This document shows positions 3,348 through 48,700 of a stretch of 60,000 nt of DNA, one piece after another. The DNA lies in contig NC_087078.1 of NCBI RefSeq assembly GCF_026151205.1, positions 15,395,118 through 15,455,117 of the forward strand. Reading direction: 5' to 3'. A program made the translations under genes and the position numbers. The DNA comes from Bolinopsis microptera (taxonomy: Eukaryota > Ctenophora > Tentaculata > Lobata > Bolinopsidae). The notes beneath the pieces are model-generated. The model was not told the DNA's origin, ran no database searches, and worked only from the letters and a program-made list of their open reading frames with translations. How positions within the stretch are numbered: position 1 is the first letter of the stretch; every line of letters begins with the position of its first letter.

Positions 3348-4530
3348 ATTATCCTGGGAAATGTTTGGTCACGGTGATGTTATCGACACTTATTAATGTA
3401 ACTAATCAAATTTCACATAATCTCTGAAGTCTAACATATTTCAAATATTTCTAGTTTCCCTACGAAATATAGGGCTTGTAATGAAAATAAAGAGTGCCTG
3501 GCCGGTAACGGTACAAAAAATAAATACTTTGATCGAAAAAAGCTCGAACAGTCGATAATCGATCATTTATCAATTTTGTCTGTTCCATCTGCATCATGGC
3601 CATCAAGTGGGTCTTACAGTACAAAGAGTTTGTTAGAATTATAAAGGCGTAGTTGAGAACTTTCAAAAGGTATTATTTGCCAGAGAAGAATGACATGTTC
3701 TTGCATCTGGTCCATGTGCTCAATTTGTCTGAGATTTGGACTTTATAATCCGTAATTAGGTCTCGAGAGGAGATCTAATGATAATGTGGAACGAGCCCAT
3801 GAAAAATGAAATCTATGGATATCATGCTAAAAACTTGTCTCTCTAAATTAACAGAAGAGAGGGGGGGGGGGTTTCACCCTGATTTTTTTGTAAAACTTGG
3901 TTTCGAGAAAGCAGTTGACCAAAAAACTAGGACCGGTGACCGAACTTTTGAGGGGGTCTCGGACCCCAACCGCCAAACGGTGCCCGCGGGGCAGCCAGTG
4001 CCACGCCCATATTTTGTCCAAATTAGGCATAATTTAGCCAAATACCCTGAACATGCCCAAAACCCAGATTTTAGGTGTTTTACTTGTAGCTAGTGGTCCC
4101 CTGAACTCGTATATGATTTTCATCAAGATTGGACAAAAAATGACTGAGTTATGAGCCAAAAACCACAATACCATATTTGGGCATACGCACCAAATTTGAT
4201 CGATTTTGGCCCATAAATTGGTCAAATATCAATATTTTTGAATGAAACCAACTTTATATGGAAGGTAAGTCTATACTACACATTCTTTATGATTATCAGC
4301 TCAGTATCTACCTAACTGTGGATTCGTGTTCAAATAATCGCAAAATGCCCGGCAAATGTTTTTAAAGGCCTCACTCAAAATTCCACTACAAAACTTAAGG
4401 TCAAAATGCGATTCTACGCTGATTCTGAAAATTTCATGTAAAAATATTGAAACTCTATTGAGTTCTATTGTTTTGAGCGAAATCAGTGTTTGCAAATATC
4501 GCGAACTGAGATGTGGGTGATTTTGTTCAT

Positions 4531-5338: not shown

Positions 5339-8300
5339 TACAATGTTTGAAACAATCCCACTTCAGCTTAAAGTGCGCTCAAAGAACAAGAAGGAGATAA
5401 TCGGTGGATTCTTCAAAAGCATGACAAAGAATGTGGACGAGGCTCTACTTTCCGGACAAAAAGACAAAGACGAGTTTTTCATCGAGAGGAGGACGTTTCT
5501 CGAGGACTACCATCTGAGAATCAAGGAAACTACCAAAAAGAGTGAATCTCTTTCTGCTTCTACTAACGGGCTCAGTTTCGATTATATGCAGGTATGATTT
5601 GTCATATTTTGTGTTTCTTTGCTGATCTTAATTTCCTTAGCACGTTTACTGTTTAGCTGTAACATGATAACGTCTCGAGTGTACCATTTTGCTACTCATA
5701 GCTTCATACAATGTATAATGTCCATTACAGTAATGTTACGGAATGTATGTACGCTCTCACTTTGAACTTTGTTAACCAAACCACTCAACGACTGTTCAAT
5801 TATGTGTCTTGATTAATGGTATATATTTAGAAATAATGAAGTCATTGATCCAGAATCAGTTTCAATCTAATAGATAAATATAATAATCATTATCGAGAAC
5901 ACAATTAGGAAAATTATAGAATCTTCAAACATTGTTCCGTGTTGGCTATAGGGATATATGTTGTTAAAATAGCTTCTTCTTTGTAGACTTATCATATCTT
6001 CAGGATGTTTATCGTTAACTACTTCAGATTTGTGTAAAATTTGATAATCATAATAGCTGAGAGAAACATCGTCTGCAGTGAGATGACATAAAGTCTTTGC
6101 GTTGTATTTCGTTATACCATTTCAATTCCAGAGTTCATGGAACAAGTAGAGTTGGTTTGATCAGAAACAAATATTGGTCCGATAACTAAGAAATCAAAAA
6201 TGAAGCAAACTGTTATCTCCCGTCCAATGGCGTCCATGTTTTCTTTTGCATTCTCCTAATAATTTGTTAGTCACATTCCTCGTCTGATAACATCTGTAAA
6301 TCCTGCAACGAGTTTATTTCTTGTTCTTTATCCTCAGAACGTTCGTCGACAAGTTTTCTTTTCTTCGGTGCCTCGTGGATCTTCTTTACGTGATTTGTGA
6401 GATGTTTCTTCTGTCGAGCACTGTACTCACAGTACTCACATGGGAATGGTCTTTTGCCAGAGTGAGTGAGTTTGTGGTTCTTCAATCCTGATTTAGTTTT
6501 TGAAGCATGATCACATTCATTACAAACCCATGGCCTTTCTGCAGTATGTACTCTTTCGTGCAATTTCAGGTTGCTTTTGGATTTTGACCTGAAGTCGCAT
6601 TTGTCGCACTCGAATAGTTTTTCTTGCGAACCTTCGTGGATATTCTCAATATGTCGGATGAGTGTACTTTTGGTTCGAGCACTGTAATCGCAGTGTTTAC
6701 ATTTGAACGGCCTTCCGTTTTTGTTTGAATGCCTAGTAGCTGCATGTGCATTTAGATTCTTCTTCGAAGTTGCTTTATAGTCACATTTGGGGCATTCAAA
6801 GGGTTTTTTGTCAGAGTGAGTTAGTTTGTGAGTCTTCAGCTGAAAAAGAGTCTTTGAGGCGTGATCACACTCATCGCAATTCCAATTTCTTTCACTGGTA
6901 TGAGACAACTTGTGAATTTTCAAATTAGATTTCAATTTGGTTCGGTATTCGCATTTATCACACTCATGTTGACGAACATCGCTGTGGGTTAGTTTATGAC
7001 TCTCCACAGCTCCTTTAGTGGCTGATCTGTAGTCACATTCCTCACATTCATATGGCTTCTCCCCTGTGTGAGTTCGTCTATGCTGGGTCAGGTGACTGCT
7101 CTGGGTCGTTGAATAATCACACAAATCACACTTGTAAGGCCGTTCACCTGTGTGAGTACGTTTATGCGATGTCAAGCCTTGTCTTTGTGTTGCAGCATAA
7201 TCACACAGATCACATTTAAAGTGTCGTTCTATAGAATGGGTGAGCTCGTGGCTTCTCAAGTTGTCAACTCTGTTGGTCGAATAATCACATTTTTCACAAT
7301 GAATAGGTTTCTTTCCGGTATGCGTAACCATATGTTGTTTAAGATGAGCCGACTGTTTTGCTGAGTAATCACACAAGTCACACTTAAAGGGTCGCTCACC
7401 AGTGTGAGTGAGTCTGTGTGATCCTAATGTAGATTTGTATGCAGAGGCATAGTCACACAAATCACACTTGTAACGCCTATCAGCTGCTGAGTGAGACAGC
7501 ATATGTACTTTCAACTGAGATTTCTGGACGGCGTGATAGTCACACTTTTCGCACTCATAAGGTCTCTCTCCAGTGTGAGTGCGAATGTGAGCTTCTAGGT
7601 GAGGTTTGTATTTAGCTCGGTAATCGCAATGATTACATTCGAATGGTTTGTCTTGATGTTCTTCATTAGTTAAGATCTGTGTCTTCAGATCGCCGACCAT
7701 CTTGGTACCGCTGTTACTTGATTTATCGATGTTGTTATATCTTCGTAACTAACTTCATTTACATCAGGTATCTGAATGGTAGAAATCAGGCTATTAGTTA
7801 AATGCAGATTGCAGAATCTTACAAGTTACAATCTTTAACCATTTAAAAGCCAAGCTAATTTAGTTCACATTTAGTATGAGATTCGTGGGTACGGTTCCCG
7901 TTGCACATCGGATTTAGTTAAGTCGACTTATTATCCCGGCCATAAAATTAAAAAGAAACAAATAAATTTGTCTCAGATTTAATGGGGATAAACAAACAAA
8001 TGAAAGAATGAAAGTAACAGAAATTAGAACGATCTCAACTAGGATGACGCGTAATACGATGAAAGATACTCAACAAAGATTACCAGTGTTTAGTTTCAAC
8101 GGGTGGCCGACAACTGAACCCAATTGAACATAATTCCCACTTACCAATCAGCTTAATTGGTTAGGGTTAGGGTTAGGGTTAGGGTTGAGGTTAGGGTCAG
8201 GGTCAGGGTTAGGGTTAGGGTAAGGGTTAGACTTTAGAGTTAGGGTTAATCTAAATGTCTTAATTGGGTTCAGTTGTCCGGTAGCAGTTTCAATACTGTC

Positions 8301-11300
8301 GCCCATATGACTACACAATTAATAACAAAATCAATATATCAATTATTATCGTATTAAGTTGTGTACTGTTGTACTCTGTAATCGGGATCTCGAGAATCGA
8401 GGGGTACTCGAGAGGCAACTCGATTCAATTGAAGTAATACACGAGTTAGGTGGGTGGCTCGAAAGGTTTAAATCACGGACATTGTATTATATTGTATTAA
8501 TATATAATAATGATTAATATAATATAAAGGCGCTTTTACAAAACCGTTGCGTATGACTATGAGAAGTTTCTACGAAAAACCAATTAGATGTGAGACCACG
8601 GACCACGGACGGCTATGGGGGGTGAATGAAGTGTCATGTGATTTTTAAATGATTTGTGATTGGTTGTTGTTAGGCTAGACGTGTTAACTGTGTGGCAACT
8701 GGGTCAAATTGGGTTCTAATTTGATATTCCTAGCTAGGTCAGTTAAATTGTTCCCTGATGAAAGTAACTTTAGACCTGGTCCCAATTCGGTCCTCTGGGA
8801 AGTTACTAATATTTAAGTAATAAGTATATCACTACACACTATATCAAAGTCTTCCTAGGTTGACTTATGCTGCACTCAGTTCCTTTGGCGTGCCAATGGC
8901 AATGTACCCTCATCAATATATCATAACATATTTAAAACTAATTACAACACTACAAATCTATTACATTTATTGAGTATTATGTATCGTGATGGAAATATTT
9001 TAAGCGGGTAATATCCTGTCCAAACCCAGAATACATAACATGAAGACTTTGTTGTAACTTGTATGAAAAGCATTAATATACAATATACATTTGTAACAAG
9101 TAATATCATTATTATTTTCCACAACCACCAATACAATCCATCTGCTCGCCACAGTATCAATTAGCGACAAAATCTACCGTGTACAAATATTCTACTTAAG
9201 ATAACGTATACTCAATATTAGTAGTGACTAACTAGCTCCCTCCCTCAGGTAGCAGGTTGTCTAGCCCTCCTCTCCAATATTACGATAAGTAGTGACTAAC
9301 TAGCTCCCCCCCTCAGGTAGCAGGTTGTCTAGCCCTCCTCTCCAATATTACGATGAGTAGTGACTAACTAGCTCCCTCCCTCAGGTAGCAGGTTGTCTAG
9401 CCCTCCTCTCCAATATTACGATGAGTAGTGACTAACTAGCTCCCTCCCTCAGGTAGCAGGTTGTCTAGCCCTCCTCTCCAATATTACGATGAGTAGTGAC
9501 TAACTAGCTCCCTCCCTCAGGTAGCAGGTTGTCTAGCCCTCCTCTCCAATATTACGATGAGTAGTGACTAACTAGCTCCCTCCCTCAGGTAGCAGGTTGT
9601 CTAGCCCTCCTCTCCAATATTACGATGAGTAGTGACTAACTAGCTCCCTCCCTCAGGTAGCAGGTTGTCTAGCCCTCCTCTCCAATATTACGATAAGTAG
9701 TGACTAACTAGCTCCCTCCCTCAGGTAGCTGGTTGTCTAGCCCTCCTCTCCAATATTACGATGAGTAGTGACTAACTAGCTCCCTCCCTCAGGTAGCAGG
9801 TTGTCTAGCCCTCCTCTCCAATATTACGATGAGTAGTGACTAACTAGCTCCCTCCCTCAGGTAGCAGGTTGTCTAGCCCTCCTCTCCAATATTAAGATGA
9901 GTAGTGACTAACTAGCTCCCTCCCTCAGGTAGCAGGTTGTCTAGCCCTCCTCTCCAATATTACGATGAGTAGTGACTAACTAGCTCCCTCCCTCAGGTAG
10001 CAGGTTGTCTAGCCCTCCTCTCCAATATTAAGATAAGTAGTGACTAACTAGCTCCCTCCCTCAGGTAGCAGGTTGTCTAGCCCTCCTCTCCAATATTACG
10101 ATGAGTGGTGACTAACTAGCTCCCTCCCTCAGGTAGCAGGTTGTCTAGCCCTCCTCTCCAATATTAAGATAAGTAGTAACTAACTAGCTCCCTCCCTCAG
10201 GTAGCAGGTTGTCTAGCCCTCCTCTCCAATATTAAGATAAGTAGTAACTAACTAGCTCCCTCCCTCAGGTAGCAGGTTGTCTAGCCCTCCTCTCCAATAT
10301 TACGATAAGTAGTGACTAACTAGCTCCCTCCCTCAGGTAGCAGGTTGTCTAGCCCTCCTCTCCAATATTACGATAAGTAGTGACTAACTAGCTCCCTCCC
10401 TCAGGTAGCAGGTTGTCTAGCCCTCCTCTCCAATATTACGATGAGTAGTGACTAACTAGCTCCCTCCCTCAGGTAGCAGGTTGTCTAGCCCTCCTCTCCA
10501 ATATTACGATAAGTAGTGACTAACTAGCTCCCTCCCTCAGGTAGCAGGTTGTCTAGCCCTCCTCTCCAATATTACGATAAGTAGTGACTAACTAGCTCCC
10601 TCCCTCAGGTAGCAGGTTGTCTAGCCCTCCTCTCCAATATTACGATGAGTAGTGACTAACTAGCTCCCTCCCTCAGGTAGCAGGTTGTCTAGCCCTCCTC
10701 TCCAATATTACGATGAGTAGTGACTAACTAGCTCCCTCCCTCAGGTAGCAGGTTGTCTAGCCCTCCTCTCCAATATTACGATGAGTAGTGACTAACTAGC
10801 TCCCTCCCTCAGGTAGCAGGTTGTCTAGCCCTCCTCTCCAATATTACGATGAGTAGTGACTAACTAGCTCCCTCCCTCAGGTAGCAGGTTGTCTAGCCCT
10901 CCTCTCCAATATTACGATGAGTAGTGACTAACTAGCTCCCTCCCTCAGGTAGCAGGTTGTCTAGCCCTCCTCTCCAATATTACGATGAGTAGTGACTAAC
11001 TAGCTCCCTCCCTCAGGTAGCAGGTTGTCTAGCCCTCCTCTCCAATATTACGATGAGTAGTGACTAACTAGCTCCCTCCCTCAGGTAGCAGGTTGTCTAG
11101 CCCTCCTCTCCAATATTACGATGAGTAGTGACTAACTAGCTCCCTCCCTCAGGTAGCAGGTTGTCTAGCCCTCCTCTCCAATATTACGATAAGTAGTGAC
11201 TAACTAGCTCCCTCCCTCAGGTAGCAGGTTGTCTAGCCCTCCTCTCCAATATTACGATGAGTAGTGACTAACTAGCTCCCTCCCTCAGGTAGCAGGTTGT

Positions 11301-14300
11301 CTAGCCCTCCTCTCCAATATTACGATGAGTAGTGACTAACTAGCTCCCTCCCTCAGGTAGCAGGTTGTCTAGCCCTCCTCTCCAATATTACGATGAGTAG
11401 TGACTAACTAGCTCCCTCCCTCAGGTAGCAGGTTGTCTAGCCCTCCTCTCCAATATTACGATGAGTAGTGACTAACTAGCTCCCTCCCTCAGGTAGCAGG
11501 TTGTCTAGCCCTCCTCTCCAATATTACGATAAGTAGTGACTAACTAGCTCCCTCCCTCAGGTAGCAGGTTGTCTAGCCCTCCTCTCCAATATTACGATGA
11601 GTAGTGACTAACTAGCTCCCTCCCTCAGGTAGCAGGTTGTCTAGCCCTCCTCTCCAATATTACGATGAGTAGTGACTAACTAGCTCCCTCCCTCAGGTAG
11701 CAGGTTGTCTAGCCCTCCTCTCCAATATTACGATAAGTAGTGACTAACTAGCTCCCTCCCTCAGGTAGCAGGTTGTCTAGCCCTCCTCTCCAATATTACG
11801 ATGAGTAGTGACTAACTAGCTCCCTCCCTCAGGTAGCAGGTTGTCTAGCCCTCCTCTCCAATATTACGATAAGTAGTGACTAACTAGCTCCCTCCCTCAG
11901 GTAGCAGGTTGTCTAGCCCTCCTCTCCAATATTACGATAAGTAGTGACTAACTAGCTCCCTCCCTCAGGTAGCAGGTTGTCTAGCCCTCCTCTCCAATAT
12001 TACGATGAGTAGTGACTAACTAGCTCCCTCCCTCAGGTAGCAGGTTGTCTAGCCCTCCTCTCCAATATTACGATAAGTAGTGACTAACTAGCTCCCTCCC
12101 TCAGGTAGCAGGTTGTCTAGCCCTCCTCTCCAATATTACGATGAGTAGTGACTAACTAGCTCCCTCCCTCAGGTAGCAGGTTGTCTAGCCCTCCTCTCCA
12201 ATATTACGATGAGTAGTGACTAACTAGCTCCCTCCCTCAGGTAGCAGGTTGTCTAGCCCTCCTCTCCAATATTACGATGAGTAGTGACTAACTAGCTCCC
12301 TCCCTCAGGTAGCAGGTTGTCTAGCCCTCCTCTCCAATATTACGATGAGTAGTGACTAACTAGCTCCCTCCCTCAGGTAGCAGGTTGTCTAGCCCTCCTC
12401 TCCAATATTACGATAAGTAGTGACTAACTAGCTCCCTCCCTCAGGTAGCAGGTTGTCTAGCCCTCCTCTCCAATATTACGATAAGTAGTGACTAACTAGC
12501 TCCCTCCCTCAGGTAGCAGGTTGTCTAGCCCTCCTCTCCAATATTACGATGAGTAGTGACTAACTAGCTCCCTCCCTCAGGTAGCAGGTTGTCTAGCCCT
12601 CCTCTCCAATATTACGATAAGTAGTGACTAACTAGCTCCCTCCCTCAGGTAGCAGGTTGTCTAGCCCTCCTCTCCAATATTACGATAAGTAGTGACTAAC
12701 TAGCTCCCTCCCTCAGGTAGCAGGTTGTCTAGCCCTCCTCTCCAATATTACGATGAGTAGTGACTAACTAGCTCCCTCCCTCAGGTAGCAGGTTGTCTAG
12801 CCCTCCTCTCCAATATTACGATGAGTAGTGACTAACTAGCTCCCTCCCTCAGGTAGCAGGTTGTCTAGCCCTCCTCTCCAATATTACGATGAGTAGTGAC
12901 TAACTAGCTCCCTCCCTCAGGTAGCAGGTTGTCTAGCCCTCCTCTCCAATATTACGATGAGTAGGTGACTAACTAGCTCCCTCCCTCAGGTAGCAGGTTG
13001 TCTAGCCCTCCTCTCCAATATTACGATGAGTAGTGACTAACTAGCTCCCTCCCTCAGGTAGCAGGTTGTCTAGCCCTCCTCTCCAATATTACGATGAGTA
13101 GTGACTAACTAGCTCCCTCCCTCAGGTAGCAGGTTGTCTAGCCCTCCTCTCCAATATTACGATGAGTAGTGACTAACTAGCTGCCTCCCTCAGGTAGCAG
13201 GTTGTCTAGCCCTCCTCTCCAATATTACGATAAGTAGTGACTAACTAGCTCCCTCCCTCAGGTAGCAGGTTGTCTAGCCCTCCTCTCCAATATTACGATG
13301 AGTAGTGACTAACTAGCTCCCTCCCTCAGGTAGCAGGTTGTCTAGCCCTCCTCTCCACAAGGGACCCCTCTCTACAGCGCTTCATGGCTCAAAGTGCCAT
13401 TACATTCGAGTCGCTCCAGAAACTACAAAAGAGAACAAGTACTGACGAAGATTTGAAACTGACGGATTTGTTCAAGTATTATCAAAGGGAAACTCAAGCT
13501 GCGAAGTCTTTACTTTACAGGTACGGAGATTAAGGCCAGAGGGGGGGGGGGGCGGGGGGGGTAAAAGTCGTTTATCCGGTTTTCACATATTTTATCAGAG
13601 CTGCTGGAGACGAACAAGAAGAAAAAAACCGGACCAAAATCTGACCTTGCATCGCGCCAAATATTGAGGTTTACCTGTAATTACATGTAAATTGTAAAAC
13701 TTAAACTTAAACTGTAAAAAGTTCAAAAACCTTAACTCGAAAAGACTTGAAAAGATATACGCAAAAACGTTATGTTTGAGAATTTTGATTTTTGCCTTTG
13801 TTCTTGAAATATAAGGTTAACTTTACCCCAAATTCGATTTTTCAAAAAATGTTAACCTCATATTTCAAAGATGAAGGCAAAATTCTAAATTCTAAAACAT
13901 TACGTTTTTGCGCAACAACCCAAGGAACAACTGTGCCAAGTTTCAGCTTCTGGGTGTGGCCAGTCTTCTCAAGTTAAGGATTTTGGTATGAAAAAACCGT
14001 TTCGAGTAAAACGAGTTTTAGTGTTTTTATTTCACTGCCAAAATCTCAAATTCTGCATTATTTTCCGTATTTATAATTTAGTAGCATCTCCATACAATTT
14101 TTGCGTTAAGGTGAGAAGATGTTTATTGAGATACTTTATATCGGGAAAATCAATATCATAAACCAAAATGTGTCTAAAAATGAGGTTAACTATCATGATA
14201 TCTAATTGTAGTAGTAGTAAAAATATGATTGTTAACCTCGCTATAGACCATATTACACTTGGATTGGTTTATCAATACATTGTTGTACATGTAATAAAAC

Positions 14301-17300
14301 ATTTGCCCAGTATTACGATTAAGTTTTTGAGGTTAACATGTGATTGACTGGCCTATTGATTATTTAAATAATTTTTAATTGTATTACCGTGTAGTTAATA
14401 GTTGCTTTTCTTCAATAGTAAATTATTTCTATAAAATAGTTTTGTGTCCAATGCAATGTCAATGAGTCATGTAAGGCGCAATGAAACTACCGGACTACGA
14501 TGTATAGTATGGGGACTAGCACCCCATGGCAACATTAAAATATATCGACTCTGTTACATCGTTTCCTGTTAAATGTTAATATAAAACTCCGTTACAAATT
14601 GAACTGGGATTTGGCAATACTACAACTTAGATAAATAAAATATGATAAAATAATGTATAACTAGACTTAAGTAGAAGTCTGAAAGAATACAGAAAACAAA
14701 ATATTTTACTGCTTGAAAGCTTAATAATAAACTGTGAAAGAGTGGTCAACGTAAATAAAACTGTTCCGATACAACCAAAGAAATTTAAATAGCTTACGTA
14801 AAAGGTAAAAGGTATTATATAGAGGTTTCACTCTTTACAAACACTCAGTCCTTGAAGTTATTAGAATCGTTCCTTCATAAAGCAGATGACCACCAGCTCG
14901 ACACACACTATCACTAAGGTGGTCACAACTGCTGTGTACGGATTCAGGAATGCAGCTAGAGAGGTCCCTAACATGCTCCCTATCATTCCACTAGCCATGG
15001 TTATGTTAATCCCCAGCTCCAGCCGTGACTTCCCGTAATAACCGTAATCGTATGCCAGTATAGCAACCTCTACAGCCTGTATAGAGTAACAAAACTTTGC
15101 GAGCCCTAACAGCATCACTGAAGCTATCAGGCCCGGATCTGCCAGAATAATACCGTAGCTCAAAGCTATTGTTGCTGTGACCGTAAATTGCAGGATCAGG
15201 AACTTTACTCGACTCCACAAGAAATACCCTATGAGTCTCCCTATCACGTTAGCACCATTCACTGCCACCAGTATTAGAAAATCGTTACCTTGCACTATTT
15301 CCTCATTTTCAAGAGAAAGACGTTTCTTGTAGCTTCTCATCAGCCATGGAAGAAGAATAATACATCCATATCCAACGCAAAGGTTAGAGAAGAAAAAGAG
15401 ACTTGATTTTATGACCCTATTGGTAAAATTGAGGAGACTCAGTGGTTCTGTGCTGACTAGGCTGGCAGTTTCAGTCGGAACAATATTAATCTCCTCAACT
15501 GGCTCACTTTCTCCTCTCTCCGGCTTTTCAACGATGCAAAAGTGAAGCATGATGATTGGAGGGACAAAGAGTGGGATAGAAGTGAGCAGAACGAAAACTC
15601 TCCAGTTGACGAGGTCTAGAAGGAGCCACCCGAGCACTGAAACCCAAGCTCCACCGACTGGAGTAGCAAGACCTTCTGCTATAAAGGAACTTTGGGTAAG
15701 TACTTCTTTGGAGGAAAGGAGCTTGGCGAGGAATATGCCAATAGTACCATCGTTCAAACCAATACAGATACCGGTTAAGGCTCGTGAGAGAAGGAGGGTA
15801 TAATAATTAGGAACCACCGCACACAGGATAGCGAACCCTATGGACAGATAGAGTGACAAAAGCAATGTGACTCTTTCCCCAAATCTTTCTGAAGTCCAGA
15901 GTGATACCAAGACTGCGATTGACCAAAACAAAAAGAGTATCACAGCTAGGATTCCCTCTTGAAAGTCCGATATACCGAGCTCAAACGAAACTTTCTGCGT
16001 GATGACTCCGGGGAGGTAAGCCTCGACACCGTCACCGATCTTTATCATTACCGCCAGTGAGACCATCAGGTAGTCCTGTTTAGTCCAAGAGTTGGATTGT
16101 GGAGATGTACCAGTGGAAGATGATTTCATGGTTACCGTGATTGCAGTTGCTGCTGCTCCTGATTTCATGGTTAGTTCCTTTTCGTCGGACATTTCCATGG
16201 GCTGCTTAATTATCCTATTAGTATTACTGAGTGAAATTAAAATCGTAAACCAAAATGAAATGTATTTACATTCTGAGTTACCTTATCGTACTGATCAACT
16301 CAAGGCTTACTCAAAACGTGAAAAATCGAAAATAAGTTCAAAGTTGAGTACTAAATTGTAAATGATATGGTTATTTAAGCATAGCTGTGGTCAACTTTAC
16401 TACCGCCCTCATCAGATACAAATTTCAATTGTAAACTCTTAATAACTTTTATAGTAAATAATATTATTATGCACCAACTAATTATGTCCATTGACCATTC
16501 CATTGGTCTCGACGTGATGAGGGACATTCTACACTTATGATTATACTGATAGTTTGCGCAGGAATATTGAACAATTGAGTTGTGGGTTGGGAGCGTTCAC
16601 ATATTATGACGTCAGCAGCCGAGTGGAAAGAGCGGGTTTGGAAATGCTGAACGGGGGCCGTTTCTTGGAGTGAAATAACATCTTAAACTCAATTTTAGTA
16701 ACCTTAATGTTGTTTAATTAATTTTGTAAGAATCGGTTAACCTCAATTATCAAAAAAAAGTTAAGCAGTTACATTTTTTTGAGCCTTAACCCCCTCTGGA
16801 CTTAAATCCGGCGAAGTGTTACTTACTAAATCACGGTACCTAAAATCATATGCCGTATTTTTTGGCTAAATTTCATCTACAAATAATCTTGAAAGTGGCA
16901 GATGGAACATGATTTCACGGCTTGTGATGAACAGACTACTTTATTTATCCTATTTAAAGATGGTAACTGTGCTGGATATCATATAAATTACATACCTCTT
17001 ATGGGGGGGGGGGGCCAATGGCATAAATGGAGAAAATGGAGAATTACTCATAGGTTTTTCCATTTTCTCCATAGAAATAGTCTCCATTTTATGCCATTTT
17101 ATGCCATTTTATGCCATTGAAAACTTAAAAAATTAGAATTTCGAGAAAAATTATTTTAAAAAAAGATATTTTCGGCCAATAATGAACAGAGTATCATGAA
17201 ACATGGAGAAAAGTGGTTTTCAGAAAAACTTTGAAAAATGTTGACTTAGAAAATGTTCGGTCCGAGTCATTTACGATACGTACCTCCCGTATCGAGAGCT

Positions 17301-19025
17301 CCCGATTCCCAGCTCGTGTTGCAAAGGGGAGGCCTGCCTTCCGAGATCGCATTACTTCGAGTCCAAAATTGTGTATCGAGGGGAAGGTGTGGACTTCGAA
17401 AAACCGAAAAAATATTTTCGGCAAATAATGAACAGAGTAGCATGAAACGTGGAGAAAAGCGGTTTTCAGAAAAAATTTGAAAAATGTTGACTTAGAAAAT
17501 GTTCGGTCCGAGTCATTTTTGATACGTACCTCCCGTATCGAGAGCTCCCGATTCCGAGCTCGTGTTGCAAAGGGGAGGCCTGCCTTCCGAGATCGCATTA
17601 CCTCGAGTCCAAAATTGTGTATCGAGGGGAAGGTGTGGACTTCGAAAAACCGATAAAATATTTTTGGCCAATAATGGACAGAGTAGCATGAAACGTGGAG
17701 AAAATTGTTTTTCAGAAAAACTTTGAAAAATTTTGACTTAGAAATTACCCCTCGGTACACAATTTTGGACTCGAGGCTTCCCCCTGGTAATGCGATCTCG
17801 GAAGCAGGCCTCCCCTTTGCAACACGAGCTCGGAATCGGGAGCTCTCGATACGAGAGGTACGTATCGAGAATGACTCGGGCCGAAAATTTTCTAAGTCAA
17901 AATTTTTTTTCTAAAAACCACTTTTCTCCACGTTTCATGCTACCTCCTTCATTATAAGCCGAAAATATTTTTTTGGTTTTTCGGTTTATCGAAGTCTGCA
18001 CCTACCCCTCGATACACAAATTTGGACTCGAGGCTTCCCCCTGGTAATGCGATCTCGGAAGGCAGGCCTCCCCTTTACAGTGCGAGCTTGTTTCGACTGT
18101 CGAGGATGTAGGTCTCACTTCTCAGTGCCTATTACTCTCCCCTATTACTCACTCCTGCTGTAGCCTGTAGAAATAACTTTACACTAGGCTTGAGTTATTA
18201 TGAGTTTGCCTGAAGTGTGCCTCTACTAACCTAGTATAAGCATCTAGTAGCCTACTATGAGCTTTCATAAGCTTGTTACGCCCCTAGTAAGCGTTTAAAA
18301 TAAACATGTTCTAGGATGTCCAATTTAGGTGTTAAATGGTGTTAAAGATGAAATTTCGAAGACAAAATTCATGGCATAAAATGGAGAAAATGGAGAATTA
18401 CTCATGGGTTTTTCCATTTTCTCCATAGAAAAAGTCTCCATTTTATGCCATTTTATGCCATTTTATGCCATTTTATGCCATTGGCCCCCCCCCCCCCTCT
18501 TATCTTAATACTATTCAGGAGAGGACGCGCGCTTGCTGACAAGGAAATAGCCGAGGGGAAACTGGAACAAGCACAGAAGAAATTTAAAGATATCCCCACA
18601 GCAGAGGCTTACGTTGAGGACTGTAAGATCAGATTTGAATCGATATCAGATATGGCTAAGACGGGTAAGGAATGCTATTTGAATTCTTGAAATTTCTGCT
18701 TGTTAATCGTCCTTAAATACCGTCAGTTTCAATCTATTCTCAAAAGAAATTAGCCCGGACTTGAATCACTGAAAAGGTCAGCCACAAATAATTATAGTGT
18801 TTACTTTTATTTTTATTGTGAGAGGCTTATCTGATCTAACTGAAAGTTATGATAATCAATGATAATTAATAAACAAATCCTCCTGTAGAACTGGATACGT
18901 TCAAGAATCGCCGACTGGAAACATACCGGAAACACCTGGTTGACATGTCAGAACTTCAAATTCGTCACTCTCAGTCCATTATCAGTGAGCTGACCAAGGG
19001 ACTGGAATTATTAAAAGATTTTTAG
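5339..19025 (+). CDS. Sorting nexin of the SNX5/SNX6/SNX32 type, BAR-domain half, four exons (5' part missing)
   Basis: Exons 5339-5591, 13330-13520, 18519-18664 and 18889-19025, all bounded by AG/GT and with matching phases. The spliced product reads through GGFFKSMTKNVDEALLSG, STDEDLKLTDLFKYY, AAKSLLYR and DTFKNRRLETYRKHL. These align along the BAR domain of SNX5/SNX6, which drive endosome-to-Golgi sorting as part of the SNX-BAR (ESCPE-1/retromer-linked) coat. The N-terminal PX domain must lie in upstream exons I could not recognise. The first visible exon has a plausible acceptor at 5337-5338, so the ATG at 5343 is probably internal. Two opposite-strand intronless genes lie in its introns. 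The acceptor of the second visible exon lies in the last unit of a 61-fold minisatellite. The third exon begins 24 bp after a transposon. The stop is TAG at 19023-19025. Confidence 0.88.
5668..5918 (+). repeat. Direct repeat copy B, in the sorting nexin intron
   Basis: Second copy of the 4531-4797 sequence, same orientation, about 77 bp after the exon ending at 5591. The two copies bracket the exon. Confidence 0.8.
5919..6266. other. Intronic DNA between repeat and zinc-finger gene
   Basis: No feature recognised; it is 3' flank of the minus-strand zinc-finger gene. Confidence 0.5.
6267..7700 (-). CDS. C2H2 zinc-finger protein with 15 fingers
   Basis: A 477-residue single-exon protein made almost wholly of tandem C2H2 fingers. 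I count 15 from about residue 19 to 450, with C-x2-C and H-x3-H or H-x4-H pairs. Linkers vary from the canonical HTGERPY/HTGEKPY to divergent forms such as HSDKKPF and HTSERNW. Nearly every finger has the form C-x-x-C-D-Y after the second Cys, as in REST/ZNF64-like polyzinc-finger proteins. The C-terminus is basic (KKRKL, a possible nuclear signal) and then acidic. No KRAB, BTB or SCAN domain is present. Probably a DNA-binding nuclear regulator; its target is unknown. It lies antisense inside a sorting nexin intron. Confidence 0.9.
   Translation of the reverse strand: MVGDLKTQILTNEEHQDKPFECNHCDYRAKYKPHLEAHIRTHTGERPYECEKCDYHAVQKSQLKVHMLSHSAADRRYKCDLCDYASAYKSTLGSHRLTHTGERPFKCDLCDYSAKQSAHLKQHMVTHTGKKPIHCEKCDYSTNRVDNLRSHELTHSIERHFKCDLCDYAATQRQGLTSHKRTHTGERPYKCDLCDYSTTQSSHLTQHRRTHTGEKPYECEECDYRSATKGAVESHKLTHSDVRQHECDKCEYRTKLKSNLKIHKLSHTSERNWNCDECDHASKTLFQLKTHKLTHSDKKPFECPKCDYKATSKKNLNAHAATRHSNKNGRPFKCKHCDYSARTKSTLIRHIENIHEGSQEKLFECDKCDFRSKSKSNLKLHERVHTAERPWVCNECDHASKTKSGLKNHKLTHSGKRPFPCEYCEYSARQKKHLTNHVKKIHEAPKKRKLVDERSEDKEQEINSLQDLQMLSDEECD
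7701..9220. other. Intronic DNA upstream of the zinc-finger gene
   Basis: No gene. Holds the telomere-like repeat element at 8100-8285 and AT-rich unique sequence. ORFs here lack any recognisable motif. Confidence 0.5.
8100..8285. mobile_element. Candidate MITE carrying TTAGGG-type repeats
   Basis: Inverted ends GACAACTGAACCCAATT and AATTGGGTTCAGTTGTC enclose about 90 bp of imperfect GGTTAG repeats (8160-8253). The flanks both read AGTTTCAA (8092-8099 and 8286-8293), a possible 8-bp target duplication. The outermost bases of the inverted ends match poorly, so the exact termini are uncertain. Confidence 0.55.
9221..13356 (+). repeat. 68-bp minisatellite, about 61 units, each an intron/exon boundary of the sorting nexin gene
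   Basis: Period 68 bp. Each unit is 41 bp of intron end (AATATTACGATGA, then GTAGTGACTAACTAG, then CTCCCTCCCTCAG) plus 27 bp of exon start (GTAGCAGGTTGTCTAGCC followed by CTCCTCTCC). The CAG acceptors run from one ending at 9248 to one ending at 13329: 4081 bp, or 60 periods plus one inserted base near 12965. Units are almost identical, with the commonest variants at GATGAG/GATAAG and ACGAT/AAGAT. The last unit continues into ACAAGGGACCCC, the body of the exon. Confidence 0.95.
13521..14860. other. Intronic DNA between sorting nexin exon and MFS gene
   Basis: No gene recognised. Starts with a G-rich run (13539-13560). The rest is AT-rich unique sequence and the 3' flank of the minus-strand transporter. 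Confidence 0.5.
14861..16198 (-). CDS. Major facilitator superfamily transporter (SLC22/SV2-SVOP-like)
   Basis: A 445-residue single-exon membrane protein with a Ser/Thr-rich N-terminal tail of about 40 residues, then roughly 12 hydrophobic segments split by a charged central loop (about residues 225-255, rich in Glu). After TM2 the stretch WTSERFGERVTLL resembles the MFS A-motif (G-x3-D-R-x-G-R-R), with the key Asp replaced by Glu and the motif preserved only in outline. SRALTGICIG resembles the TM4 motif of organic-ion and SV2-like transporters. The substrate cannot be inferred. It is antisense in the sorting nexin intron, and the start ATG gives the expected short cytoplasmic tail. Confidence 0.82.
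   Translation of the reverse strand: MEMSDEKELTMKSGAAATAITVTMKSSSTGTSPQSNSWTKQDYLMVSLAVMIKIGDGVEAYLPGVITQKVSFELGISDFQEGILAVILFLFWSIAVLVSLWTSERFGERVTLLLSLYLSIGFAILCAVVPNYYTLLLSRALTGICIGLNDGTIGIFLAKLLSSKEVLTQSSFIAEGLATPVGGAWVSVLGWLLLDLVNWRVFVLLTSIPLFVPPIIMLHFCIVEKPERGESEPVEEINIVPTETASLVSTEPLSLLNFTNRVIKSSLFFFSNLCVGYGCIILLPWLMRSYKKRLSLENEEIVQGNDFLILVAVNGANVIGRLIGYFLWSRVKFLILQFTVTATIALSYGIILADPGLIASVMLLGLAKFCYSIQAVEVAILAYDYGYYGKSRLELGINITMASGMIGSMLGTSLAAFLNPYTAVVTTLVIVCVELVVICFMKERF
16199..17002. other. Intronic DNA upstream of the MFS gene
   Basis: Unique AT-rich sequence, likely the promoter side of the transporter. No element or exon recognised. The last 8 bp (16995-17002) are the target duplication of the adjoining transposon. 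Confidence 0.5.
17003..18495. mobile_element. 1.49-kb non-autonomous transposon with G/C-run hairpin ends, copy 1
   Basis: Starts with 12 G then CCAATGGCATAAATGGAGAA and ends ATGCCATTTTATGCCATTGG then 11 C (more C belong to the duplication). Each end also folds on itself: a segment of about 100 bp with ATGGAGAAAATGG and its complement around a short loop. The interior holds several alternating-orientation copies of a unit with CGATACGTACCTCCCGTATC and GGGGAGGCCTGCCTTCCGAG. CCTCTTAT is duplicated at 16995-17002 and 18496-18503. There is no transposase. The copy at 29232-30716 is nearly identical. The 8-bp duplication suggests mobilisation by a hAT-type transposase (inference). Confidence 0.88.
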
Positions 19026-29011: not shown

Positions 29012-29231
29012 TATATAAACTTGTTGTTTCTTTGTTTTGGTTTCGAAGAGTAGAGGTTATAAGTAATAGGAGGCTTTGGTCGGTGTAATATCCGGATCGA
29101 AAAGTTGTTTATAAGTCGCATTATTGTGATGATTCTGATTCAAAATGTGTGATCATTACAATTTTTGATATTTCATTTTAACAAATACTTTAGTATACAG
29201 GCTAAATTATGTTCTAGTAGCATGACATGTG

Positions 29232-30716
29232 GGGGGGGGGGGCCAATGGCATAAATGGAGAAAATGGAGAATTACTCATAGGTTTTTCCATTTTCTCCAT
29301 AGAAATAGTCTCCATTTTATGCCATTTTATGCCATTTTATGCCATTGAAAACTTTAAAAATTAGAATTTCGAGAAAAATTATTTAAAAAAAAGATATTTT
29401 CGGCCAATAATGAACAGAGTATCATGAAACATGGAGAAAAGTGGTTTTCAGAAAAACTTTGAAAAATGTTGACTTAGAAAATGTTCGGTCCGAGTCATTT
29501 ACGATACGTACCTCCCGTATCGAGAGCTCCCGATTCCCAGCTCGTGTTGCAAAGGGGAGGCCTGCCTTCCGAGATCGCATTACTTCGAGTCCAAAATTGT
29601 GTATCGAGGGGAAGGTGTGGACTTCGAAAAACCGAAAAAATATTTTCGGCAAATAATGAACAGAGTAGCATGAAACGTGGAGAAAAGCGGTTTTCAGAAA
29701 AAATTTGAAAAATGTTGACTTAGAAAATGTTCGGTCCGAGTCATTTTTGATACGTACCTCCCGTATCGAGAGCTCCCGATTCCGAGCTCGTGTTGCAAAG
29801 GGGAGGCCTGCCTTCCGAGATCGCATTACCTCGAGTCCAAAATTGTGTATCGAGGGGAAGGTGCGGACTTCGAAAAACCGATAAAATATTTTTGGCCAAT
29901 AATGGACAGAGTAGCATGAAACGTGGAGAAAATTGTTTTTCAGAAAAACTTTGAAAAATTTTGACTTAGAAATTACCCCTCGGTACACAATTTTGGACTC
30001 GAGGCTTCCCCCTGGTAATGCGATCTCGGAAGCAGGCCTCCCCTTTGCAACACGAGCTCGGAATCGGGAGCTCTCGATACGAGAGGTACGTATCGAGAAT
30101 GACTCGGGCCGAAAATTTTCTAAGTCAAAATTTTTTTTTCTAAAAACCACTTTTCTCCACGTTTCATGCTACCTCCTTCATTATAAGCCGAAAATATTTT
30201 TTTGGTTTTTCGGTTTATCGAAGTCTGCACCTACCCCTCGATACACAAATTTGGACTCGAGGCTTCCCCCTGGTAATGCGATCTCGGAAGGCAGGCCTCC
30301 CCTTTACAGTGCGAGCTTGTTTCGACTGTCGAGGATGTAGGTCTCACTTCTCAGTGCCTATTACTCTCCCCTATTACTCAATCCTGCTGTAGCCTGTAGA
30401 AATAACTTTACACTAGGCTTGAGTTATTATGAGTTTGCCTGAAGTGTGCCTCTACTAACCTAGTATAAGCATCTAGTAGCCTACTATGAGCTTTCATAAG
30501 CTTGTTACGCCCCTAGTAAGCGTTTAAAATAAACATGTTCTAGGATGTCCAATTTAGGTGTTAAATGGTGTTAAAGATGAAATTTCGAAGACAAAATTCA
30601 TGGCATAAAATGGAGAAAATGGAGAATTACTCATGGGTTTTTCCATTTTCTCCATAGAAAAAGTCTCCATTTTATGCCATTTTATGCCATTTTATGCCAT
30701 TGGCCCCCCCCCCCCC
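29232..30716. mobile_element. 1.49-kb non-autonomous transposon with G/C-run hairpin ends, copy 2
   Basis: Nearly base-identical to 17003-18495 over its length. Starts with 11 G and CCAATGGCATAAATGGAG and ends ATGCCATTGG with 13 C. GACATGTG is duplicated exactly at 29224-29231 and 30717-30724. The homopolymer lengths and the number of terminal ATGCCATTTT units differ between copies. ORFs inside come from the repeated internal unit being open on both strands and are not genes. Confidence 0.9.
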
Positions 30717-39700: not shown

Positions 39701-42700
39701 TACTTTTGCCGGAAGATCAGGGAATTTATTGTTCGTTTTCTATCTGTATTCAGTGTTATTTAGTATGCAATGATTTTCTATCTATCATTATTAGTAGTAG
39801 TAGTATGGTGGACCATGAGTATCACTAATTTTTTTAGGGGGTGGGACATATTGACCCATGCCCCATCAGTATCAATGATATTTTTAGGGGGTGGGACATA
39901 CCTGTCCCATGCCCCATCAGTATCAAAATATTTTTTTCAGAGGGTGGGCCGCCCCATCAGTATCAAGAAGAAAACATTGGTGGGATTTCGTGTACCATGC
40001 CCCATGAGTATCAATAAAAATTTTATAGGGTGGGAAATACCTGTCCCATGCCCCATCAGTATCAAAAGATTTTTTTCAGAGGGTGGGCCGCCCCATCAGT
40101 ATCAAGAAGAAAACATTGGTGGGATTTCGTGTACCATGCCCCATGAGTATCAATAAAAATTTTATGGGGTGGGAAATACCTGTCCCATGCCCCATCAGTA
40201 TCAAAATATTTTTTTCAGAGGGTTGGCCGCCCCATCAGTATCAAGAAGAAAACATTGGTGGGATTTCGTGTACCATGCCCCATGAGTATCAATTAAATTT
40301 TTGTGGGGTGGGACATACCTGACCCATGCCCCATCAGTATCAAAAACATTTTCAGAGGGTGGGCCGCCCCAGGAGTATCAAAATTTCTTTTTAACGGGTG
40401 GGCCGCCCCATGAGTATCAAAATTTCTTTTCTTTTTCTTTTTTTAAAAAGAAAAAAAAGAAAAAAAAACCAAAAAAAAAAAAAAAAAGAAAAAAAATTTC
40501 TTTTTAACGGGTGGGGCATACCTGACCCATGCCACATCAGTATCAAAATTTCTTTTTAACGGGTGGGCCGCCCCATGAGTATAAAAATTTCTTTTTAACG
40601 GGTGGGCCGCCCCATGAGTATCAAAATTTCTTTTTAACGGGTGGGACATACCTGACCCATGCCCCATCAGTATCAAAAACATTTTCAGAGGGTGGGCCGC
40701 CCCATGAATATCAAAATTTCTTTTTAACGGGTGGGCCGCCCCATGAGTATCAAAATTTCTTTTTAACGGGTGGGACATACCTGACCCATGCCCCATCAGT
40801 ATCAAAAACATTTTCAGAGGGTGGGCCACCCCATGAGTATCAAAACTTCTTTTTAACGGGTGGGACATACCTGACCCATGCCCCATCAGAGTTAGTGGGA
40901 CCATAGGCGGCAGCCCCGGCGGCGATCAGATCAGGGAATCATTAAAACCTGTACGAGTGGGACGGTATGGTTTGGGTAAACGTTAGGGTTAGGGTAAGGG
41001 TTAGGTAGGGGGTGCACGATAAAAATAAACTTGCTCGGATTTAAAAAATTTTTGTACCACTGTTTTCTAGAGACTGTGAGAATTTTCACAATACCAAATT
41101 TTTCATACCTTTTTGGAAAGATCAGTGAGTTTCACCTAGGTGCCATATTTGATGGTGCGCGGCTTTTGGAGCAAAAGTAGTTGTAAAAGTCGCGTAATTT
41201 GACCAAATTCGTCCAAATTTGACCATTTTTGTCGTATTATTCGGATTTATCTCCAGTTCCTTAAATGAGATCATTCTGGAAATTGGCGACGACCTTCCAA
41301 TAGGGCTTTTACAACTGTCCGAAAAATTTGGTGGATATCGGAGTTGACATAGTGATCAAAATGGGGCAAAATACGCTGCTTTTAGCTGTAACATAATGTC
41401 TGATGGTTGGATATGCTTTAAATTTTTCGGACACTTTCCTTGTAAGTCTATGAGTAAGCTTACCAATTTTTGTTGCAATTAGAGGTCGGGAAGGATACTC
41501 AATATCTATTTGTTTGAAGAAAATTGTGCTGGCCGAAATTAGCGCTAAAAACCATCCTACAGTCGGCACGCGCGGCTCACTGTCGATGGCGCACTACCTA
41601 GGTTAGGGTTAGGGTTTGTGTTAGGGTTAGGGCTAGGGATGAGGTTAGGGTTAGGGATGAGGTTAGGGTTAGGGTTAGGGTTAGGTAATACAAACCGTCC
41701 TACTTGTACAGATTACGATTGGACCCATCAGATCAAGGGACAGAGGCCGCTTGCCTTCCGATCAATTTCCGTAAACGTTGCTATTTTTCTGAGTCTGTGC
41801 GTGGACGATTCCATTTCCCGTTGGTTTTGGATCGTTACGAAGTCCGAAAGACGTCAAACTGACATGCAACATGGTCACGCACATTCACTGCAATGGTAAG
41901 TTGGGTAATTGTAGCGCAGATCGTCCAAACGATCGCTGTCCTGTCGCGTCTTTCGAATCATTCCATGTTATATGTGCCGAATGAATGAGGGACCAAAACG
42001 CTTGGGGCTAACAATGGCCCATTTACAAACCACTTCAGACATTGTAGCGCGATGCACTACTGGGTCGCGCGCGCATCAAATAATGCTTCTCGCAACCACG
42101 TAGATCGGCGAAATGCACCACGGTGCCTCACCGAGCTGCGAAGGATTGACATCGTGAATCAACTTCAGACATGGCAATGATGTCATTTATGCTTAATTCG
42201 TCTGAAACTGACCCTACTGGGATTGGATACAGTGCTCCATGCACGCGTAAGATATAGCGGCCTTGGCGGAGCATTTTACAGTAACGTAGCTTGGGCCAAT
42301 AAGAATCTAGGACGGTTTGTATTACCTTATTCTAATATAACGCGACGCCCGCCGGGAGAACTGACAAGTGATGTTACACTCAACACTACCACTACAGTAT
42401 ATGTTACGCTTGCCCACCGCGAGCTGATTACTCAGGACGCGCAAACACGTCAAGATAAAAACGTTTCGCGCCCTACAAAGTTCGGTAGACCTTGATTTGC
42501 AACTAAACGCTTGTAGTTTGCATTGCGCGCGCAGCTTTTGCACAGTTTAGTTCAACATCAACCATGCACATAACTATTGTTAATATTTATACTGCATTAA
42601 ATTTCTAATTTTTGACATTTGATGGGAATTTTGATGTGCAATTGCTGTTTTTTATATGAATTAGTATGACTATGCCGTTATATAATGCAAAATATAAGTA

Positions 42701-45700: not shown

Positions 45701-48700
45701 TTTTTACAGCATCTGACTGATGTAATCAATCGAAATTTATTACAATTCGTAAGCCGTGAATGAATGGAAAAAGCGAGCGACCGATTTCATTCTCGGTATC
45801 ATTTTGCATTTGAGAACGGTCAATCAAATTAATATCATTTCCTTTTGTTTGGGAAAGAGAGACACTGGCAGCGGTCCACTCTACCCATGAATATGGGTTT
45901 TGGTAAAATAATTCTTACAGAATCGTAATGAGCTTAATCAGATGCAACGTTTGGTACCAAAATTATAATATTTAAAGCACCAAATTTTTCGAAAATTTGT
46001 TCAAAATTTTACACAAGGGGGGACCCTTGTGTTCAGATTAAAAACGTTTGAAAAAAAAATTCCTTTAAATCTTAAAATATTAGTACTAAAATTTTTGTCT
46101 CGATGAGCTGATTACGATACCATAATAACTATGTGATAATAATTTAAAATGTGAAAGTTATAGGCCAAAAACTAAAAATTTACTCGAAAAAAGCACGCGC
46201 GGCGAACAAGCGCCGTATAGCATTTTTTCCGAAAATTGCTACACGGTGGATTTATTTTATTCACATTTTTAGACAACTTTTGGTACCAAATTTATCGAAA
46301 TCGGGGAAAAAAAGTTTTGTGCTCGCGCTTGGCGCTTATTACACTGACTAGTAGTGGTAGTGTAACATCACTTGTCAGTTCTCCCGGTGCGAGCGTGCTA
46401 AATCACTCTACAGTCGATCTTCGAGATTGTTCTAAAAGGGCCCCCGACGGTTGTAACCAACTTCAATCGATGTATTTTCGGACGCTGATTCCGAATCACC
46501 CCCCATGACATAGGGTTAAAATGCTCCCCTGACGAGATATTGGCGAAAAACTGTCTCGATCACGTGATATGACCGTATAAGGAAGTTAGTCTAATATCTC
46601 GTTAGGGTTAGGGTTTCAGCATATGTTTTTGTTAAGGATTGGGTTAGGGTTAGGGTTGGGATCAGATTAGAGGGTTAGGGTTTCGAAAAGTCGTTCAGAA
46701 CCAGCTAGAGAACGGGTTGAAAAAGTCACGTGACAGTCGAGTGTAGAGTGATTAATCATCATCCCTCCCGGTGGGCGTCGCGTTATATTAAAATAAGGTA
46801 ATACAAACCGTCCTAGATTCTTATTGGCCCAAGCTACGTTACTGTAAAATGCTCCGCCAAGGCCGTTATTTCTTTTGCGTGCATGGAGCACTGTATCCAA
46901 TCCCGATCAATTATAATTATAAACAGAAAAATTCGAAATAGGCTCACAATTAAAATTTAAATTTCGGCACATATAACATGGAATAATTCGAAAGACGCGA
47001 CAGGACAGCGATCGTTTGGACGATCTGAGCTGCGCTACAATTACCCAACTTACCAGTGCAGTGAATGTGCGTGACCATGTTGCATGTCAGTTTGACGTCT
47101 TTCGGACTTCGTAATGATCCAAAACCAACGGGAAATGGAAACGTCCGCGCACAGACTCAGAAAAATAGCAATGGTTACGGAGATTGATCGGAAGGCAAGC
47201 GGCCTCTGTCACTTGATCTGATGGGTCCAATTGTAATCTGTACAAGTACGAAGGTTTGTATTACCTAACCCTAACCCTAACCTCATCCCTAGCCCTAACC
47301 CTTACTCTAACCCTAACGTTTACCCAAACCATACCGTCCCACTCGTACAGGTTTTAATGATTCCCTGATCTGATCGCCGCCGGGGCTGCCGCCTATGGTC
47401 CCCACTAACTCTGATGGGGCATGGGTCAGGTATGTCCCACCCTTTAAAAAGAAACTTTGATACTCATGGGGCGGCCCACCCGTTAAAAAGAAATTCTGAT
47501 ACTTATGGGGCGGCCCACCCTCTGAAAATGTTTTTGATACTGATGGGGCATGGGTCAGGTATGTCCCACCCGTTAAAAAGAAATTTTGATACTCATGGGG
47601 CGGCCCACCCGTTAAAAAGAAATTTTGATATTCATGGGGCGGCCCACCCTCTGAAAATGTTTTTGATACTGATGGGGTATGGGTCAGGTATGTCCCACCC
47701 GTAAAAAAGAAATTTTGATACTCATGGGGCGGCCCACTCGTTAAAAAGAAATTTTGATACTGATGGGGCATGGGTCAGGTATGTCCCACCCGTTAAAAAG
47801 AAATTTTGATACTCATGGGGCGGCCCACCCGTTAAAAAGAAATTTTGATACTCATGGGGCGGCCCACCCTCTGAAAATGTTTTTGATACTGATGGGGCAT
47901 GGGTCAGGTATGTCCCACCCGTTAAAAAGAAATTTTGATACTCATGGGGCGGCCCACTCGTTAAAAAGAAATTTTGATACTGATGGGGCATGGGTCAGGT
48001 ATGTCCCACCCGTTAAAAAGAAATTTTGATACTCATGGGGCGGCCCACCCGTTAAAAAGAAATTTTGATACTCATGGGGCGGCCCACCCTCTGAAAATGT
48101 TTTTGATACTGATGGGGCATGGGTCAGGTATGTCCCACCCGTTAAAAAGAAATTTTGATACTCATGGGGCGGCCCACCCTCTGAAAATGTTTTTGATACT
48201 GATGGGGCATGGGTCAGGTATGTCCCACCCGTTAAAAAGAAATTTTGATACTCATGGGGCATGGGTCAGGTATGTCCCACCCGTTAAAAAGAAATTTTGA
48301 TACTCATGGGGCGGCCCACCCGTTAAAAAGAAATTTTGATACTCATGGGGCGGCCCACCCTCTGAAAATGTTTTTGATACTGATGGGGCATGGGTCAGGT
48401 ATGTCCCACCCCACAAAAATTTGATTGATACTCATGGGGCATGGTACACGAAATCCCACCAATGTTTTCTTCTTGATACTGATGGGGCGGCCCACCCTCT
48501 GAAAAAAATATTTTGATACTGATGGGGCATGGGACAGGTATTTCCCACCCCATAAAATTTGATTGATACTCATGGGGCATGGTACACGAAATCCCACCAA
48601 TGTTTTCTTCTTGATACTGATGGGGCGGCCCACCCTCTGAAAAAAATATTTTGATACTGATGGGGCATGGGACAGGTATTTCCCACCCCATAAAATTTTT

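Follow-up and report, generated by a model that had tools for sequence, protein, structure and literature searches.

A 61-unit minisatellite of near-identical 3' splice sites in a sorting nexin intron of the ctenophore Bolinopsis microptera

The stretch of DNA analysed here (the window) comprises 60,000 nucleotides of the ctenophore Bolinopsis microptera (assembly GCF_026151205.1, contig NC_087078.1, forward-strand positions 15,395,118 to 15,455,117). It contains part of a sorting nexin gene, one intron of which ends in a minisatellite of 61 units, each carrying a complete 3' splice site and the start of the following exon (Table 1). Exons were sought in the window and in a stretch upstream of it; nine were located, four of them inside the window, and the exon for the first 11 residues of the public protein was not located in either. 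The joined translation of the nine exons (389 aa to the stop codon) was 100% identical to P0001, the 400-aa NCBI protein 'sorting nexin-6-like isoform X2 [Bolinopsis microptera]', for which Pfam PF00787 and PF09325 are listed. Many animal SNX5/6/32 proteins were among the best 120 of the 1031 matches to the nine-exon protein, and the homology is full-length, with PX and BAR-type regions as in the PX-BAR sorting nexins. The host gene is thus the SNX5/6/32 orthologue of B. microptera. An earlier note, made from the letters alone, had placed it in the SNX5/SNX6 family, which is borne out by P0001 and by the structural match described below. A pseudogene was ruled out, since the reading frame across the nine exons is uninterrupted and its product equals the NCBI protein.

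Table 1. Positions in the window of the array and of the sorting nexin features around it.
Feature	Coordinates	Strand	Basis
Preceding coding exon, 225 nt, ends ATGCAG/GTATGA, phase 0	5367..5591	+	gene model, P0001
Array-bearing intron, 7738 bp, array at its 3' end	5592..13329	+	gene model
Single-copy 5' side of amplified segment: AATATT + AGTAGTG...CTCAG (35 intron nt), first acceptor ends 9248	9214..9248	+	direct reading, unit table
68-bp minisatellite, 61 units, complete 3' splice site and exon start per unit	9220..13357	+	TRF, unit table, core identity
27 exon nt found in every unit, here the coding copy (VAGCLALLS)	13330..13356	+	unit table, translation, relatives
Following coding exon, 191 nt, donor TTTACAG/GTACGG	13330..13520	+	gene model, P0001
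Next coding exon, 146 nt	18519..18664	+	gene model, P0001
Last coding exon, including stop codon	18889..19025	+	gene model, P0001

Tandem Repeats Finder (TRF), run on the window, reported the array at 9220-13357 with a period of 68, 60.8 copies and a 98% match. The count of 61 units of 68 bp agrees with the earlier note, which had set the start one base later, at 9221. All 61 occurrences of the motif CTCAGGTAGC in the window are on the + strand, with none on the - strand. Intron ends marked by the units run from 9248 to 13329, spaced 68 nt apart in 59 of 60 steps and 69 nt in the other. Each unit consists of 35 bp from the end of the intron (the branch-point-like CTAAC, a pyrimidine tract and CAG), together with the first 27 bp of the exon and a 6-bp filler. 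Apart from the filler, these contents had been recognised before; the exon part is more precisely 27 nt plus one A common to both sides. The units are nearly identical. CTAAC, CAG and the GTAGC directly following it, which the note had described for every unit, are indeed unbroken in all 61, and the 30-nt core from CTAAC through CAG/GTAGCAGGT (to exon +9) is the same in 58, with a single-base change in each of the other 3. Over the 62 nt from -35 to +27, 36 of the 61 sites are identical, the last site among them; 24 have 1 to 3 differences and unit 56 has more, owing to an insertion. Among the 60 full units, position 68 is G in 40 and A in 20, and position 64 is A in 4; a few other bases vary in one or two units. 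Variation between units is thus slight, the exon-ward end of the last unit excepted. The G/A variant gave no clustering that would point to a pattern of homogenisation (25 switches, shuffled mean 26.7, P 0.35).

Several other readings of the array were examined. A coding array was ruled out by at least 100 stops in each of the six frames, the longest stop-free run in any of them being 23 aa. A dispersed or introner-type element was not supported: a 401-bp array probe searched against the 264.65-Mb assembly gave 19 matches, all inside this single array, in a search that scores the best candidates only and skips very common words. RNA structure hiding the sites was likewise rejected, as the fold of three units (-43.8) was no better than that of 200 mononucleotide shuffles (-43.3, s.d. 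4.2).

The origin of the array can be read from its flanks. The unit combines the intron end and the exon start of the same junction, and both flanks continue the unit, the 3' flank being the exon itself. Within the array, the exon part ending ...CTCTCC is followed by AATATT, then ACGATG (or ACGATA), then AGTAGTG; by direct reading, the 68 nt of a unit divide into 6 + 29 from the intron, 27 from the exon and 6 of filler. At the 5' flank CAATATT/AGTAGTG stands with nothing between, and inside the array the same place reads CAATATT-ACGATG-AGTAGTG. The arrangement is that of a 3' splice junction duplicated in tandem, with filler, and then expanded; tandem amplification of the junction had been proposed in the earlier note. 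A 62-bp segment (35 intron nt and 27 exon nt) was duplicated in tandem with the 6 bp of filler, and the product then grew to 61 nearly identical units, presumably by the process behind the many other minisatellites of this genome. The filler may date from the first duplication, or it may once have stood in the 5' flank too and been lost there.

Evidence on which acceptor is productive comes from the protein. The exon ending at 5591 (phase 0), when joined to 13330, stays open, and this two-exon piece gives a match to the solved sorting nexin-5 chain 8afz_B (E 1.1e-32) that extends across the junction. The junction reads FDYMQ/VAGCLALLSTRDPSLQRFM and is aligned with DYIHTAACLHSLALEEPT of 8afz_B. 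Among the matches listed, the three closest relatives (P0002-P0004; 86, 82 and 75% identical) are without an insert at the junction, where they read DYMQLAGG, DYMQVAGC and DYMQIGGC, respectively, within the segments DYMQLAGGFALLSVQDP, DYMQVAGCMALISKIDP and DYMQIGGCCVLLANADP. They stand on contigs of 1.2-1.5 kb, which fits transcripts. Since the relatives share the exon start, this start is old coding sequence and the array was derived from the exon, not the reverse. The NCBI model P0001 has no added residues at the junction, so it shows neither a new intron nor an added exon, and because the nine-exon model equals P0001, the last acceptor (13329/13330) is the one used in the public model. The proposal that the last CAG serves as the phase-0 acceptor is therefore supported by P0001 and by the relatives. 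For 59 of the 60 earlier acceptors, splicing there would bring in a stop after 16 codons. The uniform 16 codons claimed before do not extend to unit 55, where a 1-bp insertion shifts the frame and the stop comes after 15. No truncated isoform was found among the best 120 of the 1031 matches.

Splice-site strength was scored with matrices from 18 genuine introns, a small set, of which 8 were from the sorting nexin gene (the array's own acceptor left out) and 10 from chaperonin-family genes (PF00118). For the chaperonin introns, which were called on the basis of frame and length, 21 of 35 profile matches, at four loci, were used. Among 17 neighbouring exon pairs, 6 were dropped because the profile gap was too wide; the 11 tried gave 10 introns (8 with a single candidate, 2 chosen by best donor match) and, in one case, none. 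Genuine donors and acceptors were scored leave-one-out, and the unit's acceptor and donor-like site lie outside the matrices. The acceptor of the consensus unit scored 13.15 bits, above 17 of the 18 genuine acceptors, and only 0.5% of 194 background AGs scored at least as high. A consensus-like splice site is thus present in every unit, with the core unbroken or changed at one base. Because the unit acceptor outscores nearly all genuine ones, local strength does not explain which copy is chosen.

Taken together, these results make it fairly probable, as judged from sequence, that the array is a junction-amplifying minisatellite in which productive mRNA joins 5591 to 13330 and the last unit is chosen mainly by exon definition. 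The last unit would be picked mainly for its place beside the strong downstream donor at 13520 (10.18 bits, itself included in the matrix; the donor at 5592 has 8.7 bits on the same terms), with which it bounds a 191-nt exon. Only this unit is continuous with the exon, which is why the array stays inside the intron. Wrong acceptor choices would yield early-stop mRNAs that could be removed by nonsense-mediated decay. If the public model is right, the 60 upstream copies, being near-identical, transcribed earlier and stop-bound, imply that the productive choice is not made by local strength or transcription order alone.

Several points weigh against this assignment. Exon definition alone does not single out unit 61, since an exon starting at unit 60, 59 or 58 would be 259, 327 or 395 nt long, respectively; exons of up to 400 nt admit 4 of the 61 acceptors, and some misuse, with decay of the products, is therefore to be expected. 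P0001 is an annotation, possibly guided by protein homology. Its name, X2, implies that an isoform X1 exists, and truncated isoforms may hide in its 90% cluster of 13 members. According to PMC10232365, Iso-Seq and RNA-seq were used for B. microptera.

The same acceptor scores are in keeping with a possible attenuating role for the array. Early acceptors would often be used, most transcripts would be lost to nonsense-mediated decay, and array length, whether selected or merely tolerated, would set output. The consensus acceptor that beats 17 of 18 genuine ones is present in nearly all inner units, and every inner acceptor reaches a stop within 16 codons, both of which fit. The gene is intact in the model, however, and when the last 232 aa of the protein were searched against the genome, 4 of the 6 matches lay in the sorting nexin gene and 2 in a partial inverted copy, with no second full copy among them. 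With the gene intact and no second full copy found, heavy loss would probably be costly, and we regard this explanation as doubtful.

The sequence directly after each acceptor bears on a further possibility, recursive splicing. A zero-length recursive splice site is a 3' splice site joined directly to GT. GTAGC follows all 61 acceptors, and joining the upstream exon to nearly any of them gives ATGCAG/GTAGCA, with the CAG/GTAGCA join of the consensus unit. This could act as a new donor, so that splicing to any acceptor first could be followed by re-splicing, on average in a few jumps, to the last unit. The donor-like CAG/GTAGCA scored 5.13 bits, within the genuine donor range and above 6 of the 18 genuine donors. 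In a toy model of random forward jumps, 80-90% re-splicing placed 47-69% of the product on the last unit (69% at 90%). Against this, 9.5% of 283 background GTs of the array-bearing intron score as well, and AG/GT is ordinary, a GT standing directly after 5 of the 18 other acceptors. The site also lacks a G at +5, which is present in 8/8 donors of the sorting nexin gene and 5/10 chaperonin donors, though 5 of 18 genuine donors are also without it (0/8 sorting nexin, 5/10 chaperonin). Moreover, the same join persists in the final mRNA, where re-splicing into the next exon might be expected. We consider such jumping rather unlikely. Its extension to a self-correcting recursive field, in which forward jumps pass through up to 61 equal acceptors, wrong choices regenerate a donor and length sets the yield, is likewise rather unlikely. 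In the earlier note each unit was said to resemble a zero-length recursive site; the AG/GT join is real, but its donor half is mediocre and such joins are common.

A one-by-one ratchet through the 61 units, which is the strict form of the ratcheting raised in the earlier note, is suggested by the periodic AG/GT at 68-nt spacing. It would need introns of 68 nt, compared to a minimum of 116 nt among the 18 sampled introns, and in the toy model an efficiency of 98.9% per step for a 50% yield; we judge it very improbable. Cassette mini-exons made from units are also unlikely, as the next best GT in the unit scored 2.75 bits against 3.02-10.77 for genuine donors. The choice of the last unit mainly by exon definition remains our preferred explanation.

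Short reads cannot be placed uniquely within a 4-kb array, and part of the copy number or unit order could in principle be a product of assembly. The published B. microptera assembly, which is taken to be that of the window, was made with wtdbg, gap-closed and Illumina-polished (PMC10232365), so the number 61 and the exact variants may be off. On the other hand, the units carry distinct variants, both flanks are unique and part of the gene, and an error of this kind would touch the number 61 rather than the existence of the array. We regard an assembly origin of the count or order as distinctly unlikely.

The array is less odd for being in a genome rich in minisatellites. In 20 random 10-kb stretches, 18,789 of 200,000 bases lay in arrays (period at least 20, at least 3 copies), 15 of the 20 stretches were affected, and 8 arrays had at least 10 copies at a match of at least 85%. 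A loose acceptor-motif filter was applied to 22 other arrays (period at least 20, at least 4 copies, at least 85% match) from 280 kb in all: the window, the 20 kb upstream of it and random stretches totalling 200 kb. The one array that passed reads, on the strand bearing the motif, as an open 25-codon repeat; a second junction array was thus supported in 0 of 22 cases, by a test that could easily miss some. Among the repeats seen, a 51-bp unit occurs at L029:8686-9474 and 3823-4050 (G000:C10:251671-261670), and the array at L029:8686 is open in frame, with repeats of RSAEPQQNGEPFVDFGK separated by KR, like a neuropeptide precursor. A dense minisatellite cluster (L041/L026, G000:C13:697636-712635) includes two arrays that are long open repeats, one with 43 copies of 45 bp and the other with 24 copies of 75 bp. 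In the window, inverted arms at 39793-40430 and 48287-49062, about 8 kb apart, are up to 98-99% complementary, contain 139-bp subrepeats and resemble a large element with terminal inverted repeats.

Other features lie in and around the sorting nexin gene. Nested in the array-bearing intron, on the opposite (minus) strand, is an open reading frame (6201-7760) that extends over as many as 493 codons and contains 15 C2H2 zinc-finger motifs. Two direct copies of a sequence with 246-bp and 10-bp subrepeats lie 12.2 kb apart at 17002-18482 and 29230-30701 and are 99% alike in the compared 300-nt blocks; the exon at 18519 begins just after the first copy, which therefore looks like a mobile element inside a sorting nexin intron. 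The partial inverted copy, on the minus strand at C7:15569172-15569682 (L014, L016), about 155 kb away, comprises the final two exons of the sorting nexin gene with the intron between them. By eye, the element preceding exon 18519 is missing from this copy, which may thus show the pre-insertion state.

Studies of how 3' splice sites compete usually employ sites of unequal strength. Here the cell must pick one right site among 61 near-identical ones, which would make this gene a natural test of splicing choice between equal signals. The correct site is the last transcribed. Provided that the public model is correct, neither 'first come, first served' nor local strength is enough to account for the choice in this gene, which must then depend on where a site lies with respect to the downstream donor, or on re-splicing. 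The length of the array may well differ from animal to animal, which would offer a natural dose series, and the richness of this genome in minisatellites suggests that other genes may carry like arrays.

A partial literature search found no report of a minisatellite made of complete acceptors, and we do not claim that none exists. Related systems share parts of the arrangement. As at zero-length recursive sites, the 3' splice site of the unit joins GT directly; the Bolinopsis sites differ in their mediocre donor half and in being 61 copies at 68-nt spacing. In the IFI6 (6-16) gene, a minisatellite has multiple splice donor sites (Turri et al. 1995, via PMC4526556), and its repeat units are described as being used for three mRNA species (PMC4526556). 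There too, minisatellite units carry a splice site of the host gene, but IFI6 units hold donors whereas Bolinopsis units hold acceptors. In the fission yeast genes SPOG_01682 and SOCG_00815, a 24-bp AGGT exonic segment is present in several tandem copies and the intron spans four and two of them (PMC4974935). Tandem AGGT-bearing segments are common to both cases, and in the yeast genes splicing removes several copies; the yeast exonic unit creates an intron, however, whereas the Bolinopsis intron pre-existed and had its 3' end multiplied. The potato RdRp gene, described in the same paper, has a tandem duplication across an intron-exon boundary, with two copies that differ at ten places; activation of a cryptic donor upstream gave a new intron and exon in the mRNA (PMC4974935). 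As in potato, the duplicated piece in Bolinopsis takes in the end of an existing intron, with its branch site, pyrimidine tract and 3' splice site, and the start of the exon that follows. In contrast to the two potato copies, there are 61 in Bolinopsis, all but the last of which are silent in the intron according to the public model, and intron-exon junction duplication is thereby extended from two copies to about sixty.

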